From the NCBI GenBank assembly GCA_017643395.1, contig JAEPNP010000006.1, positions 62,001 to 126,000 of the forward strand: 64,000 nucleotides of DNA, read 5' to 3'. Every line of letters begins with the position of its first letter. Positions within the stretch are counted from its first letter, which is position 1. The notes under the pieces were generated by a model. It had not been told where the DNA came from and searched no databases. It was given only the letters and a program-made list of their open reading frames with translations. Shown piece by piece: positions 15,401 to 21,058 of the stretch. This DNA is from Rhodothermales bacterium. Its GTDB lineage: Bacteria > Bacteroidota > Rhodothermia > Rhodothermales > UBA10348. A program made the position numbers and the translations under genes.

Positions 15401-15758
15401 CCACACACGGTTTGGGGACGTCCTGGAGTTGCTCCGGGCCGTAGAGGATCGATACGTCATCATGAATGCGGGCGATGAACTCGTGCTTCGCTTCGAGGCC
15501 CTGGATCCACCCGCCGATGGATTTACGCGCAACTACGTGTTGGTCGGGGACGGCTGGGTCAAGGACGGCGACCTGAATACCACCTTCTCTACAACCGTCC
15601 TGCCACTCCCCAGCCACGAAACAACCGCATACGACACGCCGCCCCGTGGTCTCGAGCAGGATCCGGTGTATCGCAGGCATCCGGGCGATTGGCAGCGCTA
15701 CCACACCCGATACGTGGCACCGGACCGGTTCAATCGCGCGATGACTGGGCGGGATTAG
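12474..15758 (+). CDS. CRTAC1-family lipoprotein: TPR-like, FG-GAP/VCBS, ASPIC/UnbV and a long C-terminal region
   Basis: 1094 residues. The N-terminus MTPRRPSVLLLLIALAAGC is a lipoprotein signal with lipobox AAGC. Residues about 25-230 are alanine-rich and helical with TPR-like periodicity. From about 280 to 560 there are FG-GAP/VCBS-type repeats (DLDQDYLMDLAVAGP, DMEGDLDLLVALEDGG, DLDADGDPDLAVLADNG), a propeller with Asp-rich metal loops. An ASPIC/UnbV segment follows at about 595-665 (FAVGGEVELRSGLLYQKRP, VHFGLGDNLLTEVARITWPN). The last 420 residues contain YHTRFGDVLELL, DRYVIMNAGDELVLRF and VLVGDGWVKDGDLNT; I believe this tail occurs in long CRTAC1 proteins of other phyla but know no function. 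It is the last gene of the operon with two CarboxypepD_reg-like paralogs; a repeat-filled spacer follows. Confidence 0.9.
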   Translation: MTPRRPSVLLLLIALAAGCAPAVPEPGSEEYLEALGAFYGGVAAMQIGDDLRARARLEVVTEIVPSESAAWANQTLLALRRGETDAAAVAASEAMDGASDARVALIVAHASLAVGDTASAVAQLEGVSAHSPRTLVLLAQLRPDAAAGLLEQASDLAPANTALMMARVNAGLEVPGLRGALLERPHPDPDVLQEELSGLDGSSEATMARLTNVLMRADWYRADLDAIESPPELVAPPLETPLALSPPPNRVAPADLQLVMRADPIPVTDAGWTWSAPAFVGDSETPSVLLARGRVLSLPDGTEVRLTDAPGSGTAVQDLDQDYLMDLAVAGPSGVTVFRQTPAGSFTESQGATPVTTAARGVWAFDVDMEGDLDLLVALEDGGLRVLQNLGDGTFVLDRLVGDVLVRDLKWADLDADGDPDLAVLADNGSLQWHENLRNGRWAAPETLGQDVVAVGLDDGNADGRFELAAVTEQGVLRLSPGEQAEAAVVEGALPPGVTELMLVELDNNGAVDWVLQAGTSVHVYLTDSDGTLRALDPIVGFTMDGAAALTEAGGPALVGRGAQGEALAYLPDGLAGYQWKRIRPRTAEVLGDRRINTFAVGGEVELRSGLLYQKRPIDGFLVHFGLGDNLLTEVARITWPNGDIQVEFDLLSDETVLAQQRLKGSCPWVFAVGTEGVATFITDFIWRSPLGLRINAQETAGIAATEDRILIPGSALAERDELLEVRITAELWETHFFDYVGLMAVDHPTGTEVRLDERFAFPPPDGRTHLFEAMGPMASVLDARGNPADGAALSRDDTYVPGPERARYQGIAHDHTLEMVLPDSAPANAVFVGFGWVRPTDSSINVAVDQAAREVPTSLQLEIPDGRGGWSTVRRDLGFPSGKQKTVILELADLWLPGAERRFRLRTNLEVYWDQLGWAAPSGDRPVERMLPLSSATLRFRGFSRVEAADRVSPELPQYDQLVATRPIWRDLEGYHTRFGDVLELLRAVEDRYVIMNAGDELVLRFEALDPPADGFTRNYVLVGDGWVKDGDLNTTFSTTVLPLPSHETTAYDTPPRGLEQDPVYRRHPGDWQRYHTRYVAPDRFNRAMTGRD

Positions 15759-15844
15759 GGGGCGGCGGTTTGGTGGTTGCGGCGCGGGGCGGCCGGGGCG
15801 GTCGGGGCGGCACGCGGCGGGGCGGACGGGCCTCGCCGCAGCGG

Positions 15845-16268
15845 TGCGGTCGGGGCTGCCCGCGACGGACAGCGCTGCGCCTTGAGTCCCTCGGCCTCAA
15901 ACGTGGAATCGGGCTGGCCGTTTACACTTCGCAGACCTCCGCGCCGACCCCGACATCGAATATGGGTGGGCTTTTACACTCCGGGGGCGTCCGCGCGGCC
16001 TCAAACATGGAATTGGGGTGGGTCTTTCCACTCCCCGTGCTCGGCGAGGGGCGCTCGCCGCTCCGATGCGGTCGGGGCTGCCCGCGACGGACACCGCTGC
16101 GCCTTGAGTCCCTCGGCCTCAAACGTGGAATCGGGCTGGCCGTTTACACTCCGCAGACCTCTGCGCCGACCCCGACATCGAATATGGGTGGGCTTTTACC
16201 CTCGGGGGGCGTCCGCGCGGCCTCAAACATGGAATTGGGGTGGGTCTTTCCACTCCCCGTGCTCGGCG
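15845..16268. repeat. Tandem duplication with 222-bp period
   Basis: Two copies, 15845-16046 and 16067-16268, align over about 202 bp with only scattered differences (offset 222 checked at several anchors, including TGCGGTCGGGG, CCTTGAGTCCC, AAACGTGGAAT and TCCCCGTGCTCGGCG). Each copy carries three versions of a roughly 26-bp element ending TTTACAC or TTTCCAC (15901-15927, 15954-15979, 16006-16031, and the same plus 222). Related elements occur at 48828-48852 and 48879-48904. Confidence 0.92.
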
Positions 16269-16424
16269 CCCGGACTCACGCCGCGGCCACAAGCTCGGCG
16301 CCCGGACTCAAGCCGCGGCCACAGGCTCGGCGCCCAGACTCAAGCCGCGGCCACAGGCTCGGCGCCAGAGAGCTCACGCCGCGGCCACAGGCCGGCACCA
16401 GGGCACCCGCCGCGGCTACAGACC
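16263..16424. repeat. 32-bp minisatellite, about five copies
   Basis: Copies start at 16263, 16295, 16327 and 16359, then a more degenerate copy near 16393. Each begins TCGGCGCC and contains CCGCGGCCACA. The first three are nearly identical; later copies diverge and carry small indels. It directly adjoins the 222-bp duplication and ends just before the yraN 3' end. Confidence 0.88.
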
Positions 16425-16449
16425 CGGCGCCGCCCCCTCCAACCGCCGC

Positions 16450-16842
16450 TCAGAAGGTCCAGAACGCGTTCTCAATGTGGTGAATCTCGGGCTCCTGCCC
16501 GGGCAGCCAGGTGATTGCAACCACGTCGAATCGGGCGGGTGTACGATCCATACGATTCTCGTGCAGCCAGGCGCGTGCCGCGCGGATCAGGTGCTTCCTC
16601 TTCTCCGGCGTTACGGCTTCCTCCGGGTGCCCGAATCCGGTGCCCCGGCGCGTCTTTACTTCCACGAAGACCATGTCGCCGCCGTCCTCCCATCGTTCTC
16701 TGGGCTGAAAGGCGACAATGTCCACCTCCGATCGCTCGAACCGATAGTTGGTGGCCATGATCTGATAGCCCTTGCCCTGCAGGTACTCCTCTGCAATCGC
16801 CTCGCCCTGGCGCCCGGTTTCAACGTGATTGGTCTTGCTCAT
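16450..16842 (-). CDS. yraN: YraN/UPF0102 family nuclease-like protein
   Basis: 130 residues, the normal family length. Typical blocks are visible: GRQGEAIAEEYLQGKGYQI at residues 10-28, RFERSEVDIVAF with the restriction-endonuclease-like acidic residue, and FVEVKTRRGTGFGHPEEAV, the E-x-K core of the PD-(D/E)xK fold. The C-terminal RFDVVAITW is also conserved. Members are Holliday-junction-resolvase-like predicted nucleases with no firmly assigned role. The start at 16842 lies 23 bp inside the 3' end of the GbsR-type regulator on the same strand, so they are co-transcribed. Confidence 0.93.
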   Translation of the reverse strand: MSKTNHVETGRQGEAIAEEYLQGKGYQIMATNYRFERSEVDIVAFQPRERWEDGGDMVFVEVKTRRGTGFGHPEEAVTPEKRKHLIRAARAWLHENRMDRTPARFDVVAITWLPGQEPEIHHIENAFWTF

Positions 16843-17404: not shown

Positions 17405-17541
17405 GCGTTGCAGACGATACGGCCGGTTCCCGGTTCCAGAATGTGCGATGCGCGGACAGCCGGCGAACACGGTTCATGCAGCACCCGAAGCCCTGATCTT
17501 TGCTAACTTCCGCGCTGCTTTCCCGCGCCTCGCTCATCGGC

Positions 17542-18345
17542 ATGCCCGCTCCCAACGGCATCCTCACGCTGCTCACCGACTTTGGTACCCGCGACGCATA
17601 CGTCGCGGCGATGAAGGGCGTGGTCCTGTCTGTTGCCCCGGAGGTGCGGATCGTGGATATCACCCACGACATCCCGCCTCAGGATGTGATGCAGGGGGCG
17701 TTTGTGCTGCGCGACTCTGCTGCACACTTTCCGCCGGGCACCGTACATGTGTCCGTCGTCGACCCGGGCGTCGGTTCTGCCCGCAAGGCCGTGGCAGTCG
17801 GTAAGGCCGGGCAGTACTTCGTGGGTCCCGACAATGGTCTCTTTTCCCTGGTATTGCAGGCCCGGCCGGATGAAGCAGTGGTGCTCGACAACCCCGACTT
17901 CTGGCGTGTACCAGACCCGAGCTCCACGTTCCACGGCCGAGATGTCTTTGCACCGGCCGCGGCCCATCTTGCGGCGGGAATCCCCTTGTCCGAATTGGGA
18001 TCGCCGCTAAGCCAATTGACCCCCCTGCATTGGGCCTTGCCAATTCACGACGAGCAGGGAATTCGGGGCTGGGTGGTCCACGTGGACCGATTCGGGAACT
18101 GCGTCACGAACATCACCCGCGAGGAGTTCATCGGCGGCCGATCCAAGCGGCGCTTCAAGTGCTATGCCGGCACCGTCATCCTGGATGACGTGCAGCCGAC
18201 TTACGCCGCCGTTTCAGGGGGCGACCCACTCCTGCTTTTCAATAGCACTGACCTGCTCGAAATTGCGGTTTCCCGCGGAAACGCTGCCGAACTGTACGGA
18301 CTGCGCACCGGGTCACCCATCAATGTAGTCTTCCTGGATGGCTAA
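17542..18345 (+). CDS. S-adenosyl-L-methionine hydrolase (adenosine-forming), DUF62 family
   Basis: 267 residues from the ATG at 17542 (MPAPNGILTLLTDFGTRDAY). Family markers are the LTDFG start with DAYV, ITHDIPPQDV, VHVSVVDPGVGSARK, VGPDNGLFS and TFHGRDVFAPAAAHLA. In the C-terminal barrel, VDRFGNCVTNI is typical. Characterised DUF62 enzymes use water to cleave SAM to adenosine and methionine; relatives perform halogenation but carry an extra loop, which I do not see. The 3' end overlaps the next gene by 8 bp, so the two are probably co-expressed. No halide or SAM-metabolism gene is adjacent. Confidence 0.93.
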   Translation: MPAPNGILTLLTDFGTRDAYVAAMKGVVLSVAPEVRIVDITHDIPPQDVMQGAFVLRDSAAHFPPGTVHVSVVDPGVGSARKAVAVGKAGQYFVGPDNGLFSLVLQARPDEAVVLDNPDFWRVPDPSSTFHGRDVFAPAAAHLAAGIPLSELGSPLSQLTPLHWALPIHDEQGIRGWVVHVDRFGNCVTNITREEFIGGRSKRRFKCYAGTVILDDVQPTYAAVSGGDPLLLFNSTDLLEIAVSRGNAAELYGLRTGSPINVVFLDG

Positions 18346-19669
18346 GAACGACGCCACGACACGCGTGCCCCACCTGGCGGAGGCGTTCGCCCTCGCACAG
18401 GTCATGACCAACAGTCTGGAGGCGGCCGAATCGCTGGTTGTGGAGGCCTACCGATCGGCCGGAGCGGCTAACCGGTTTGCACTGCTGGGCGCGATGGTTA
18501 CGGCCTCTGGAATGGCCTTTGACGACATCGAACCAGTGCCCCTCGGGGCCGTCGCGACGCCTCCCTCCGGGCCGGCGGCCGCGCCGGCCGACGCCGCGAC
18601 AAGCTCACCCTCCGACGCCGCGACTAGCTCACCCTCCGAGACCGCGACTGGTGCGCCGCCCGACGCCGCGACAAGCTCGCTCTCCGCGACCGCGTCAACC
18701 TCACCCCCCGACGCACCGGTCACCGCATCTCCCCATTCCGATCCATCACAGCCGCAAAGCGACCTCGAACCCGCATCGCTCGTCTCGGCACGCATCAACC
18801 GGGAGCTGCTGCGTGACCGGCTCGCCCGCGCGTATGCGGCCATGGACCAGCGTGACCGCACCGTGACCTTTCTGGCAACCCGTGGCATGCGCGCACCGGA
18901 CGACCTTGGCACCGTTCTGGGCATTCCGGCCCCGAGAGCCGCGCTGTTCCTGGGTGAAGCGGCATCCAGGCTCGCCGCACAGGAGGTCTGCACGGCGGAA
19001 GTTGCCCTGGATGCGCTGGATCTGGACAGATTTCTCGAGCGGCCGGGATCCGAACTGATCCGCAAGACGGCCGGCGCGCTCATGCGTCCCGCGACACGTC
19101 GCAAGCGTCCTCTCCGCACCCGCGTTCCGGCCGTGCTCTCCCTGCTCGCCATCGGCGCGCTGACCGCGGTCGCTGTGACCCAACTCTTCCCGCGACAGGA
19201 AGTCGTCCAGATTCCCCCTCCCGCGGATGCGCTGGAGCGGGCCGCCCAGATTGTGCCCTTCACCGAGGTCGAGCTGGAAACCCGAAGCCGAGAGCAGGCC
19301 GCAGACTGGTTTGACGGTCGTGTGGACTGGGATTTCGCAGTACCCAACATCGTCGGCACGGGCCTGACTGGGGTCGCGTTCCCGGAGATCGCCACGGGTG
19401 TGCGCATCCCGGTCTTCTTCTTCGGGCCGTCCGGGGATCAGCGCGACATCACCATCGGGGTGCTGAACTACGCCATGCTTGGAGCCCGGGCAGACCGCAT
19501 AACGCTTGATCGGGCCACGCTCGACAACCTTGCAACCGGCGGAGCCCCGCGCATGCGGACGTTCGAAGGCCGAACCGCGGTGGCGCTGCGGCACCGGGAC
19601 GACATCTTCCTGGTGGTATCCCGCCAGACGGACGTGGCGCTGCCCGGCCGCGTCTCCTTTCCGGACTGA
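18338..19669 (+). CDS. Membrane protein: ECF-sigma-like N-terminus, repeat linker, TM helix, anti-sigma-like C-terminus
   Basis: 443 residues, starting 8 bp inside the SAM hydrolase gene. Residues 12-42 (LAEAFALAQVMTNSLEAAES and onward, ending EAYRSAG) align by eye with ECF sigma region 2. Residues 85-132 are a Ser/Thr/Ala/Pro linker built on six 24-bp repeats. Residues about 150-215 (LLRDRLARAYAAMDQRDRTV ... LGTVLGIPAPRAALFLGEAA) align with region 4, including a helix-turn-helix-like LGIPAPRA. Then RKRPLRTR leads into one TM segment (VPAVLSLLAIGALTAVAVT). The extracytoplasmic tail (AADWFDGRVDWDFAVPNIVG ... GRTAVALRHRDDIFLVVSRQ) resembles the C-terminal sensor region of membrane anti-sigma factors. 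The similarities are mine and are weak at sequence level; the sigma part is likely degenerate. No separate sigma or anti-sigma gene is adjacent. Confidence 0.7.
   Translation: MAKNDATTRVPHLAEAFALAQVMTNSLEAAESLVVEAYRSAGAANRFALLGAMVTASGMAFDDIEPVPLGAVATPPSGPAAAPADAATSSPSDAATSSPSETATGAPPDAATSSLSATASTSPPDAPVTASPHSDPSQPQSDLEPASLVSARINRELLRDRLARAYAAMDQRDRTVTFLATRGMRAPDDLGTVLGIPAPRAALFLGEAASRLAAQEVCTAEVALDALDLDRFLERPGSELIRKTAGALMRPATRRKRPLRTRVPAVLSLLAIGALTAVAVTQLFPRQEVVQIPPPADALERAAQIVPFTEVELETRSREQAADWFDGRVDWDFAVPNIVGTGLTGVAFPEIATGVRIPVFFFGPSGDQRDITIGVLNYAMLGARADRITLDRATLDNLATGGAPRMRTFEGRTAVALRHRDDIFLVVSRQTDVALPGRVSFPD
18590..18733 (+). repeat. 24-bp in-frame minisatellite (six copies) coding for a Ser/Thr/Ala/Pro linker
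   Basis: Six consecutive 24-bp units beginning at 18590, 18614, 18638, 18662, 18686 and 18710, in frame with the host gene. The first two encode DAATSSPS; later units are divergent (ETATGAPP, DAATSSLS, ATASTSPP, DAPVTASP). The unit is a multiple of three, so gain or loss changes linker length without a frameshift. Confidence 0.9.
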
Positions 19670-19675
19670 CTCAGG

Positions 19676-21058
19676 TCAGGCCGCGGGGATCTCAATCCGG
19701 AAGGTCGAGCCCTCTCCGGGTTTCGAGGCGACGAGCGTAAGCGTGCCGCCGTGGTAATCCTCGACAATGCGCTTTGCCAGGCTCAGTCCGAGCCCCCAAC
19801 CCCGCTTCTTGGTACTGTATCCTGGCTTGAAGACATGGTTGGCGTCCCGCCGATCGATGCCCTTGCCGGTGTCGGCCACATCCACGCGTATGCGATCCTC
19901 AAAGCGCCTGCCCCGAACCTGAATCGCGCCTTTATCGCCCTCAATGGCATCCATGGCGTTCTTGATCAGGTTCTCGATCACCCACTCAAACAACTCGGGA
20001 TTCAGGCTCGCGCGCAGCCCCCGATCAAGATCCGTCGTGAGCTGAATGGCCCGACCTCGAGTCGGGAGTCGGTGGCGCATGTACCCTACAATATTCTCGA
20101 CGACGGGGTCGACAGGCTGCACCTCCAGCTTCGGCAGTGAACCGATGTCGGAGAAGCGTGCCGTCACACGCTCCAGGCGGGCGATGTCCTTTTCAATCTC
20201 TCCAAACGCGGTCTGCTCCTGCTCCCGCCCGACGTCCGGCATGCGCAGAACTTCGAGCCAGCCCATGAGACTGGAGATGGGGGTGCCCAACTGATGCGCA
20301 GCCTCCTTGGCCATCCCCACCCAGAGGCTGGACTGCTCACTACGTCGCACGTAGGAAAAACTGAGGTACCCTACCAGCACGAACAACGCCACAAAGAGCA
20401 ACTGGACGAAGGGAAAACGCCTCAGATCTCGAACCAGCGCACTCTCCCCGTACAGCATGTACTGCACCCACTGGATGGTCTCCCCGGTGGGGGTCCCGTA
20501 GCTCAAGTCGATGCGAATGGGATCATGCTGCGCCATCATGTCCCGTTGCAAGCGAGCCAGGACCGTTGCTGCTCGCGCCGAGTCCGGTGGCGCCATGGCG
20601 GTCAGGCTCGCGCCCTCGATCGGCACGTTGCGCCAACCGATGGCGCTGCCGTCCGTGGAGTCCACGAGGATGTGTGGAATCCCGAAGTCGGGCTCCATGA
20701 AGGCCTCCAGGATGAACGTCAGGTCGTTCACGGGAGGCATACCCTGAGACCATACGACGGCCCGGCGAAGTGTCTCTCGCTGCGTCCTGCTGAGCGGCTG
20801 CCCCGCGGCGTCCATCATTTCGCCCGTTGCCAGCAGACGATTCAGGTCCCGCAGTTCCTGCTCATACGGGTTGATGCCCTGCGCTGCAGCGCGTGGTACC
20901 TGCGCAAGGGCCATCGCCCACAGCTCGATGATGGATTGCTCCCTTTCGCGAAGCTGCTCAGCCAGCGAATTGGTGTACCACAGCGACGCCACCGCAATGG
21001 CGACCGCAAATACGATCAACCCCAGTTTGAGGTTGACCGACATTCTGTATGCCTTCAT
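19676..21058 (-). CDS. Sensor histidine kinase (orphan)
   Basis: 460 residues. Two TM segments (about residues 12-28 and 216-236) enclose a periplasmic sensor domain of about 185 residues with no recognised fold. The H-box is GMAKEAAHQLGTPISSLMGW with phospho-acceptor His near residue 255. The N box ELFEWVIENLIKNAMDAIEG and the G boxes DVADTGKGIDRRD and STKKRGWGLGLSLAKRI complete the ATPase domain. I see no HAMP domain between TM2 and the H-box, only a short connector. No response regulator is adjacent. Downstream the convergent sigma-like gene ends 6 bp away; upstream is purA with a 46-bp gap. Confidence 0.93.
   Translation of the reverse strand: MKAYRMSVNLKLGLIVFAVAIAVASLWYTNSLAEQLREREQSIIELWAMALAQVPRAAAQGINPYEQELRDLNRLLATGEMMDAAGQPLSRTQRETLRRAVVWSQGMPPVNDLTFILEAFMEPDFGIPHILVDSTDGSAIGWRNVPIEGASLTAMAPPDSARAATVLARLQRDMMAQHDPIRIDLSYGTPTGETIQWVQYMLYGESALVRDLRRFPFVQLLFVALFVLVGYLSFSYVRRSEQSSLWVGMAKEAAHQLGTPISSLMGWLEVLRMPDVGREQEQTAFGEIEKDIARLERVTARFSDIGSLPKLEVQPVDPVVENIVGYMRHRLPTRGRAIQLTTDLDRGLRASLNPELFEWVIENLIKNAMDAIEGDKGAIQVRGRRFEDRIRVDVADTGKGIDRRDANHVFKPGYSTKKRGWGLGLSLAKRIVEDYHGGTLTLVASKPGEGSTFRIEIPAA

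Follow-up and report, generated by a model that had tools for sequence, protein, structure and literature searches.

A membrane-tethered protein combining a putative sigma-derived domain with an anti-sigma-type sensor, encoded beside a SAM hydrolase gene in Rhodothermales

Genes of the locus and layout of the fusion protein

The stretch of DNA analysed here, referred to as the window, comprises 64,000 nucleotides of contig JAEPNP010000006.1 of a Rhodothermales bacterium. On its plus strand, positions 18338 to 19669 hold an open reading frame (ORF) of 443 amino acids (aa) that joins a pseudo-sigma part to a transmembrane (TM) helix and a sensor domain of the anti-sigma type. Its homologues were assembled in a family alignment (A1) of 37 sequences from 36 of the 39 related genomes with a match; G028, which is near-identical to G042, G021, where the gene meets a contig end, and G032, with a doubtful N-terminal frame, were excluded.

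All features of the fusion gene lie on the plus strand. The N-terminal sigma region 2-like domain, which lacks the basic region 2.4 (residues 10-60; 18365 to 18517), is defined by the match of the family profile to extracytoplasmic function (ECF) sigma factors, by helices of the AlphaFold2 model and by the residue comparison described below. It is followed by a disordered linker rich in Ser, Thr, Ala and Pro (residues 61-145; 18518 to 18772) and by a region 4-like domain without a basic recognition helix (residues 146-221; 18773 to 19000), assigned from predicted helices, a match to the structure 3hug_A and the same residue comparison. A juxtamembrane segment (residues 222-262; 19001 to 19123), which may represent a remnant of helix 4 of an anti-sigma domain, leads to a single TM helix (residues 263-283; 19124 to 19186), the N-terminus being predicted cytoplasmic, and to a sensor domain predicted to be periplasmic (residues 298-443; 19229 to 19666).

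The AlphaFold2 model of the window protein (mean predicted local distance difference test score, pLDDT, 79.2; predicted template modelling score, pTM, 0.46) contains three helices within residues 13-57, four within residues 148-219, the TM helix at 263-283 and an alpha/beta domain at 298-443 with block means of 84-97; residues 69-142 mostly score below 50. Eight Lys or Arg residues flank the TM helix on its N-terminal side and two on its C-terminal side. These residues were likewise richer before than after the helix in 29 of the 37 family members, and the reverse applied to four. The linker carries 5.3 copies of a 24-bp tandem repeat (18588 to 18714). Inspection of A1 by eye showed that, among three genomes of the genus, the repeats are present in the window genome alone, and that the linkers of the two congeners are shorter and different, which suggests that the repeat array is not conserved.

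Upstream of the fusion gene and overlapping it by 8 bp lies a gene for a S-adenosylmethionine (SAM) hydrolase (domains SAM_HAT_N and SAM_HAT_C; 17500 to 18345, plus strand). Such a gene was found directly upstream on the same strand in 34/34 loci with room for it, overlapping at the chosen starts in 12 of the 34, and likewise in nine further loci of the order. In this survey three loci (L032, L043, L044) end at the gene, a gap of 735 in L060 is an artefact of a wrong start, and L053 is without a called ORF of the family. On the other side, a histidine kinase gene (19676 to 21058, minus strand; HATPase_c, 1.7e-21) is convergent with the fusion gene. Of 37 loci, 31 have such a family kinase gene convergent with the fusion gene, 29 of these within 75 bp, and the six loci without a kinase call include two (L031, L045) that end at a contig border. 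No response-regulator gene was noticed beside the window kinase, no search having been aimed at one.

The initial annotation, made from the letters of the window, had described a fusion with these domain borders, region 2-like and region 4-like parts, a Ser/Thr/Ala/Pro linker, one TM helix and an anti-sigma-type outer domain, coupled to the SAM hydrolase gene. The ORF, the model, the adjacency survey and the family comparisons given below confirm this description, the two sigma-like parts being recognized with the family profile and not with the window protein alone. Its idea of a linker whose length the repeats adjust has no support, since the congeners lack them.

Ancestry, fold and distribution of the two parts

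Searched alone against Pfam, NCBIfam and the PDB, the window protein gave no sigma factor match; it is the family that supports the sigma assignment. With the window's genus left out of its construction, a family profile matched the N-terminal part of the window protein with an E-value of 3.6e-12, compared to 0.047 for the best of 1000 shuffled sequences. In the PDB, the family profile found SigE (5.8e-6, profile positions 6-128), and a second family alignment found SigE, SigL and SigH (4.9e-7, 5e-7 and 6.5e-7, respectively), all of them from M. tuberculosis. Run on the genome of the window, the N-terminal profile retrieved the fusion protein and six others. Five of these six are ECF sigma factors according to an independent Pfam search (18 sigma hits), two of them matching strongly (4.1e-9 and 6.9e-7) and three weakly (3.2e-4, 0.019 and 0.025). 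Family members searched singly matched the Pfam models Sigma70_r4_2 (6/37, best 1.3e-6), PhyR_sigma2 (3/37, best 1.8e-7) and PhyR_sigma-like (4/37, best 1.7e-6), and any one sigma model of NCBIfam matched at most 8 of the 37, with a best E-value of 2.4e-11 for PRK12546. The best match of the N-terminal profile was a SigH-type sigma factor in six of six sister genomes; for the one member shown, this sigma matches TIGR02947 at 7.2e-59, below the model cut-off. Alignment of the family to the ECF profile with hmmalign misaligned most members, and MAFFT alignments were used in its place. The region 2 and region 4 ancestry of functional ECF sigma factors is present in the family, and judged from these matches the N-terminal part is derived from a sigma factor of the SigH type.

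Structure comparisons with VIA, which itself rates Z values at the levels given here and below as middling, gave ECF sigma factors from anti-sigma complexes as best matches of the window model, namely SigW 5wuq_B (Z 9.8, 122 aa, 4.1 Å) and 5uxx_C (Z 9.5, 126 aa, 4.7 Å), and region 4 of the model matched SigL region 4 3hug_A (Z 8.2, 79 aa, 3.7 Å). A second AlphaFold2 model was obtained for L062 (391 aa, mean pLDDT 89.5), a homologue that we take to be of Rhodothermus type, just as other relatives are presumed below to be of Rhodothermus or Salinibacter type. Its region 2 part lay 2.2-2.6 Å from 7qh5_A, 5uxx_A, 4nqw_A and 5wuq_B and 1.9-2.4 Å from PhyR chains, and its region 4 lay 3.5 Å from SigL 3hug_A. 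According to both models the sigma-like part keeps the two-domain helical fold of sigma factors. Taken alone, the region 4 match is not specific for sigma factors, helix-turn-helix response regulators such as FixJ matching too (5xt2_A, Z 7.6). A compact, SigW/RsiW-like placement of the domains in the window model was not reproduced in L062 (best-ranked two-domain rows at a root mean square deviation of ~16 Å) and was not used.

The sensor domain of the fusion protein is common to stand-alone membrane proteins of sister genomes. In two of these (G074, G126) a gene with this domain lies directly downstream of the gene for the SigH-type sigma, and its products are the two out of ten sister-group sensor proteins in which zf-HC2 exceeds the Pfam cut-off. 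TIGR03988 (antisig_RsrA) matches nine of the ten at 7.5e-4 or better, in every case below its cut-off. RsrA, itself soluble, pairs with SigR, which is the relative of SigH in actinobacteria; these RsrA-type matches fit with a SigH/SigR-type partner, a combination labelled ECF12. These domain matches identify the sister-group sensor proteins as anti-sigma factors. The stand-alone counterparts in sister genomes resemble SigH/SigR (TIGR02947) and RsrA (TIGR03988) with scores below the model cut-offs; unlike these systems, the fusion family lacks the contact residues for RNA polymerase (RNAP) and DNA and apparently also an anti-sigma domain.

The window protein has the TM helix and outer sensor domain of class I membrane anti-sigma factors, and Pfam and NCBIfam scans found in it no zf-HC2, RsrA or other anti-sigma domain. 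NF052375 (antisigma) matched 4 of 37 family members, with a best E-value of 0.0028. A juxtamembrane motif occurred in 21 of 32 members, compared to 5.4 in shuffled sequences; this count, made post hoc on related sequences and with a window copy that lacks the motif, is a lead only. The sensor profile found no credible match in the PDB (best E-value 0.076), and in both models the sensor fold is like that of the C-terminal domain of RseB (2v42_B; Z 7.5 for the window and 7.4 for L062, 92 aa, 3.1 and 3.2 Å) and of MucB (6in9_A; Z 6.9 and 6.6, 92 aa), the RseB and MucB fits spanning 3.1-3.5 Å. RseB and MucB are separate periplasmic proteins.

The family is an old one. A search with the window protein gave matches in 39 of 60 related genomes, and a profile of the C-terminal domain in 52 of the 60. 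Across the order, the sensor domain was found in 89 of 114 genomes (60 of the 77 of good quality), once per genome except in G051, which has two matches on two contigs. A stand-alone SigH-type sigma was found in none of the 114 genomes at 1e-32; the same profile reached 2.2e-100 or better in 12/12 sister genomes, two of which (G074, G126) had contributed sequences to the model. Among 60 genomes of the order its best match was 3.3e-28, the level of the second-best sigma factors in sister genomes, and 46 of the 60 had a match at 1e-25. In 12/12 genomes of the sister families f17 and f18, the sigma gene is convergent on a kinase gene whose product reaches 387-425 bits against the family profile of the window kinase, other kinases in sister-group stretches scoring about 1e-19, and four of these kinases are 36-44% identical to the window kinase. 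Kinases were assigned to the family by profile score. On this evidence of gene order we regard the fusion gene as corresponding in position to the stand-alone SigH-type sigma gene.

Residue loss and selection in the sigma-like part

Residues at functional positions, numbered on the SigH-type sigma L160, were compared between 36 family members and 24 real ECF sigma factors (6 of SigH type, 14 from the window genome and 4 others from sister genomes). The 36 members consisted of 31 of the 37 sequences of A1 together with L153, L154, L156, L157 and L158; outside this set stood L043, L044, L057, L058, L060 and L061 of A1 as well as L144, L151, L152 and the split gene L155. L032, cut at a contig end, was scored as a gap in region 2, and four of the 18 sigma hits of the window genome (L069, L081, L084, L086) were excluded as other sigma types or doubtful frames.

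The Asp and Gln of the DLVQE stretch are contacts to core RNAP. The hallmark Gln of region 2.2 was present in 24/24 ECF sigma factors versus 3/36 members, and the Asp in 22/24 versus 3/36. Likewise, the Asn of region 2.4 occurred in 22 of the 24 ECF sigma factors and in none of the 36 members, and a basic residue at position 81 in all 24 versus two members. The net charge of region 2.3-2.4 ranged from +3 to +8 in the ECF sigma factors and from -7 to +2 in the family. For the recognition helix of region 4.2 the members had a mean charge of -0.4, compared to +3.7 and +5.3, with ranges that overlap at +1 to +2, and the recognition-helix column was gapped in 23 of the 36. As far as sequence can tell, the sigma part has decayed in that the residues for binding core RNAP and promoter DNA are gone. 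Positions of the core were kept in most of the 36 members (Y/F27 in 33, A30 in 34, A40 in 32, L43 in 30 and R137 in 33), and a Gln at position 31 was found in 31 of them versus one of the 24 ECF sigma factors.

The ratio of nonsynonymous to synonymous substitution rates (dN/dS) was well below 1 for the sigma-like part in pairs with measurable dS. Three Rhodothermus-type pairs, which share three genomes, gave 0.13, 0.16 and 0.13 for the sigma-like part and 0.05-0.14 for the sensor, and a Salinibacter-type pair gave 0.27 and 0.29, respectively. For 3 of the 8 pairs dS was beyond measure in at least one segment, and for others it exceeded 1. Where dS is measurable, these ratios indicate that the sigma-like part is under purifying selection. 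This part can nevertheless be lost, since 4 of the 37 members are without it.

A proposed origin and mechanism and its alternatives

We propose, with a probability of about 0.72, that the gene for a SigH-type ECF sigma factor became joined to that for a membrane anti-sigma factor, that the anti-sigma domain between them was lost, and that the product now serves as a membrane-tethered pseudo-sigma which passes on an envelope signal. In the cytoplasmic domain the helical fold with its two domains would persist without the residues that contact core RNAP and the -10 and -35 elements, and initiation of transcription in the manner of an ordinary sigma factor would not be expected of it. The conserved outer domain would sense the state of the envelope, and the TM helix would relay the signal to the pseudo-sigma domain. 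The latter may act through a bound protein partner, an anti-sigma factor in the simplest case, as with PhyR. The steps that we infer here are the fusion of a cognate pair in a single event, sensing, partner binding and output.

A close precedent is PhyR of the alphaproteobacterial general stress response. Its sigma-like domain has the structure of an ECF sigma factor with degenerated promoter- and RNAP-binding regions, and a sigma fold of this kind can sequester an anti-sigma factor (PMC8103513). The family described here likewise has a sigma-like fold without residues for DNA and RNAP contact. Unlike PhyR, which has a receiver domain, it has the sigma-like domain tethered to a membrane anti-sigma sensor; a Pfam scan found no receiver domain in the window protein, whose C-terminal part consists of the TM helix and the sensor. 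In class I anti-sigma factors, helix 4 lies on the RNAP-binding part of region 2 and helix 1 on the DNA-binding part of region 4 (PMC7406223). Since no such anti-sigma bundle was found and its target surfaces are eroded, neither ordinary restraint nor ordinary release of a sigma factor fits, and the precedent of PhyR favours a signal that passes from the sensor domain to a pseudo-sigma able to bind a protein.

Several observations weigh against this proposal. By itself, the window protein matched the SigH profile with an E-value of 0.062 and the ECF profile with 0.21 (1000 sequences), neither of them significant. Foldseek gave no match at 1e-3 for the window or the L062 model, and the placement of the two sigma-like domains differs between these models. 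A remnant of the anti-sigma domain in front of the TM helix was not supported, as hhalign against the anti-sigma domain of relatives gave a probability of 2 and a non-significant E-value of 0.024. In the other four of six sister genomes the sensor gene is on a different contig or ~0.6 Mb away from the sigma gene, and three genomes (G082, G100, G144) have the sigma but no sensor match, so that the pairing is not constant. No kinase of the window family was found in the 14 kb around the sigma/anti-sigma pair of the two f16 genomes, G074 and G126. The sensor domain is absent from all 16 listed f15 genomes. In A1 the sigma-like part is missing from L057 and L061 and replaced by a Pro-rich stretch in L058 and L060, and the closest pair analysed gave, on few changes, a dN/dS of 0.35 for the sigma-like part versus 0.06 for the sensor.

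The family offers a well-resolved example of how a transcription factor becomes another kind of protein. The sigma factor persists in sister genomes, where two families have it beside the same convergent kinase family, and two genomes have sigma and anti-sigma genes as neighbours; in one order, the 114 genomes searched yielded the fused, decayed form only. Should the pseudo-sigma act as a decoy, sigma mimicry would have evolved more than once. None of the literature matches listed describes this fusion family in its title or the start of its abstract, most subscription papers being beyond reach. A bolder version, which we put forward tentatively and consider possible at best, is a membrane-anchored sigma mimic spread across an order. 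It would have arisen by decay of a lineage's own SigH-type sigma while fused to the RsrA-type anti-sigma factor; the outer sensor would regulate how far the mimic is exposed, and the mimic would titrate an anti-sigma factor that belongs to a different ECF system. Such a partner switch would resemble that of PhyR, be operated from across the membrane and have been invented independently outside Alphaproteobacteria.

It is unlikely that the sensor and TM helix alone matter and that the sigma-like part is carried along as a passenger or spacer in slow decay. The sensor is indeed the best conserved part (mean pairwise identity 0.304; region 2, 0.275; region 4, 0.198), and four members do without the sigma-like part, but its low dN/dS, the retention of Y/F27, A30, A40 and R137 and the family-typical Gln 31 speak against a mere passenger. 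The suggestion of the initial annotation that the protein is a degenerate relic acting as a sensor came closer than its other option, with "relic" being too weak a term for a part under purifying selection.

The unbroken adjacency of the SAM hydrolase gene could also mean that the membrane protein anchors or controls the co-encoded enzyme and that its sigma origin is incidental. We regard this as rather improbable; conserved adjacency can mean co-expression only, and the stretches examined around the sigma and anti-sigma genes of the sister group showed no SAM hydrolase gene.

Least probable is the other option of the initial annotation, whose interpretation is thus partly supported as a whole: an active, self-inhibited membrane sigma whose working N-terminal part is freed by regulated proteolysis, a mode described for IutY of Pseudomonas putida and suggested for ECF52/SCO4117, would agree with the TM topology and with the order of sigma part, TM helix and outer domain in one polypeptide that IutY (ECF243), ECF48, ECF52 and ECF53 have (PMC8999054), but those proteins keep a sigma expected to work after proteolysis, whereas here the contact residues and basic charge are gone, the recognition helix is mostly gapped and no anti-sigma domain was found. 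Actinobacterial fusion groups, moreover, keep a zinc-finger domain, and none was found in the window protein.

Some further observations concern relatives of the fusion gene and the surroundings of the locus. Family f15 seems to lack both the sensor domain and the SigH-type sigma, which no genome of the order yielded at 1e-32. In G048 a Salinibacter-type fusion gene (L155, 7153 to 8435) is split into two frames, one sigma-like and one for the sensor, and in G032 the N-terminal part of L052 (9523 to 10875) is unlike the family, a frame shift being likely. Three genes of family f4 (L144, L151, L152) encode a sensor protein beside a SAM hydrolase and a kinase; these proteins have a short N-terminal part of their own, which by eye may keep a region 4-like helix-turn-helix. 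Within the window, positions 15821 to 16431 are taken up by two direct repeats of 222 bp (94% alike) and then by a 42-bp unit present four times, between an ORF ending at 15758 and an opposite-strand ORF at 16450 to 16842.

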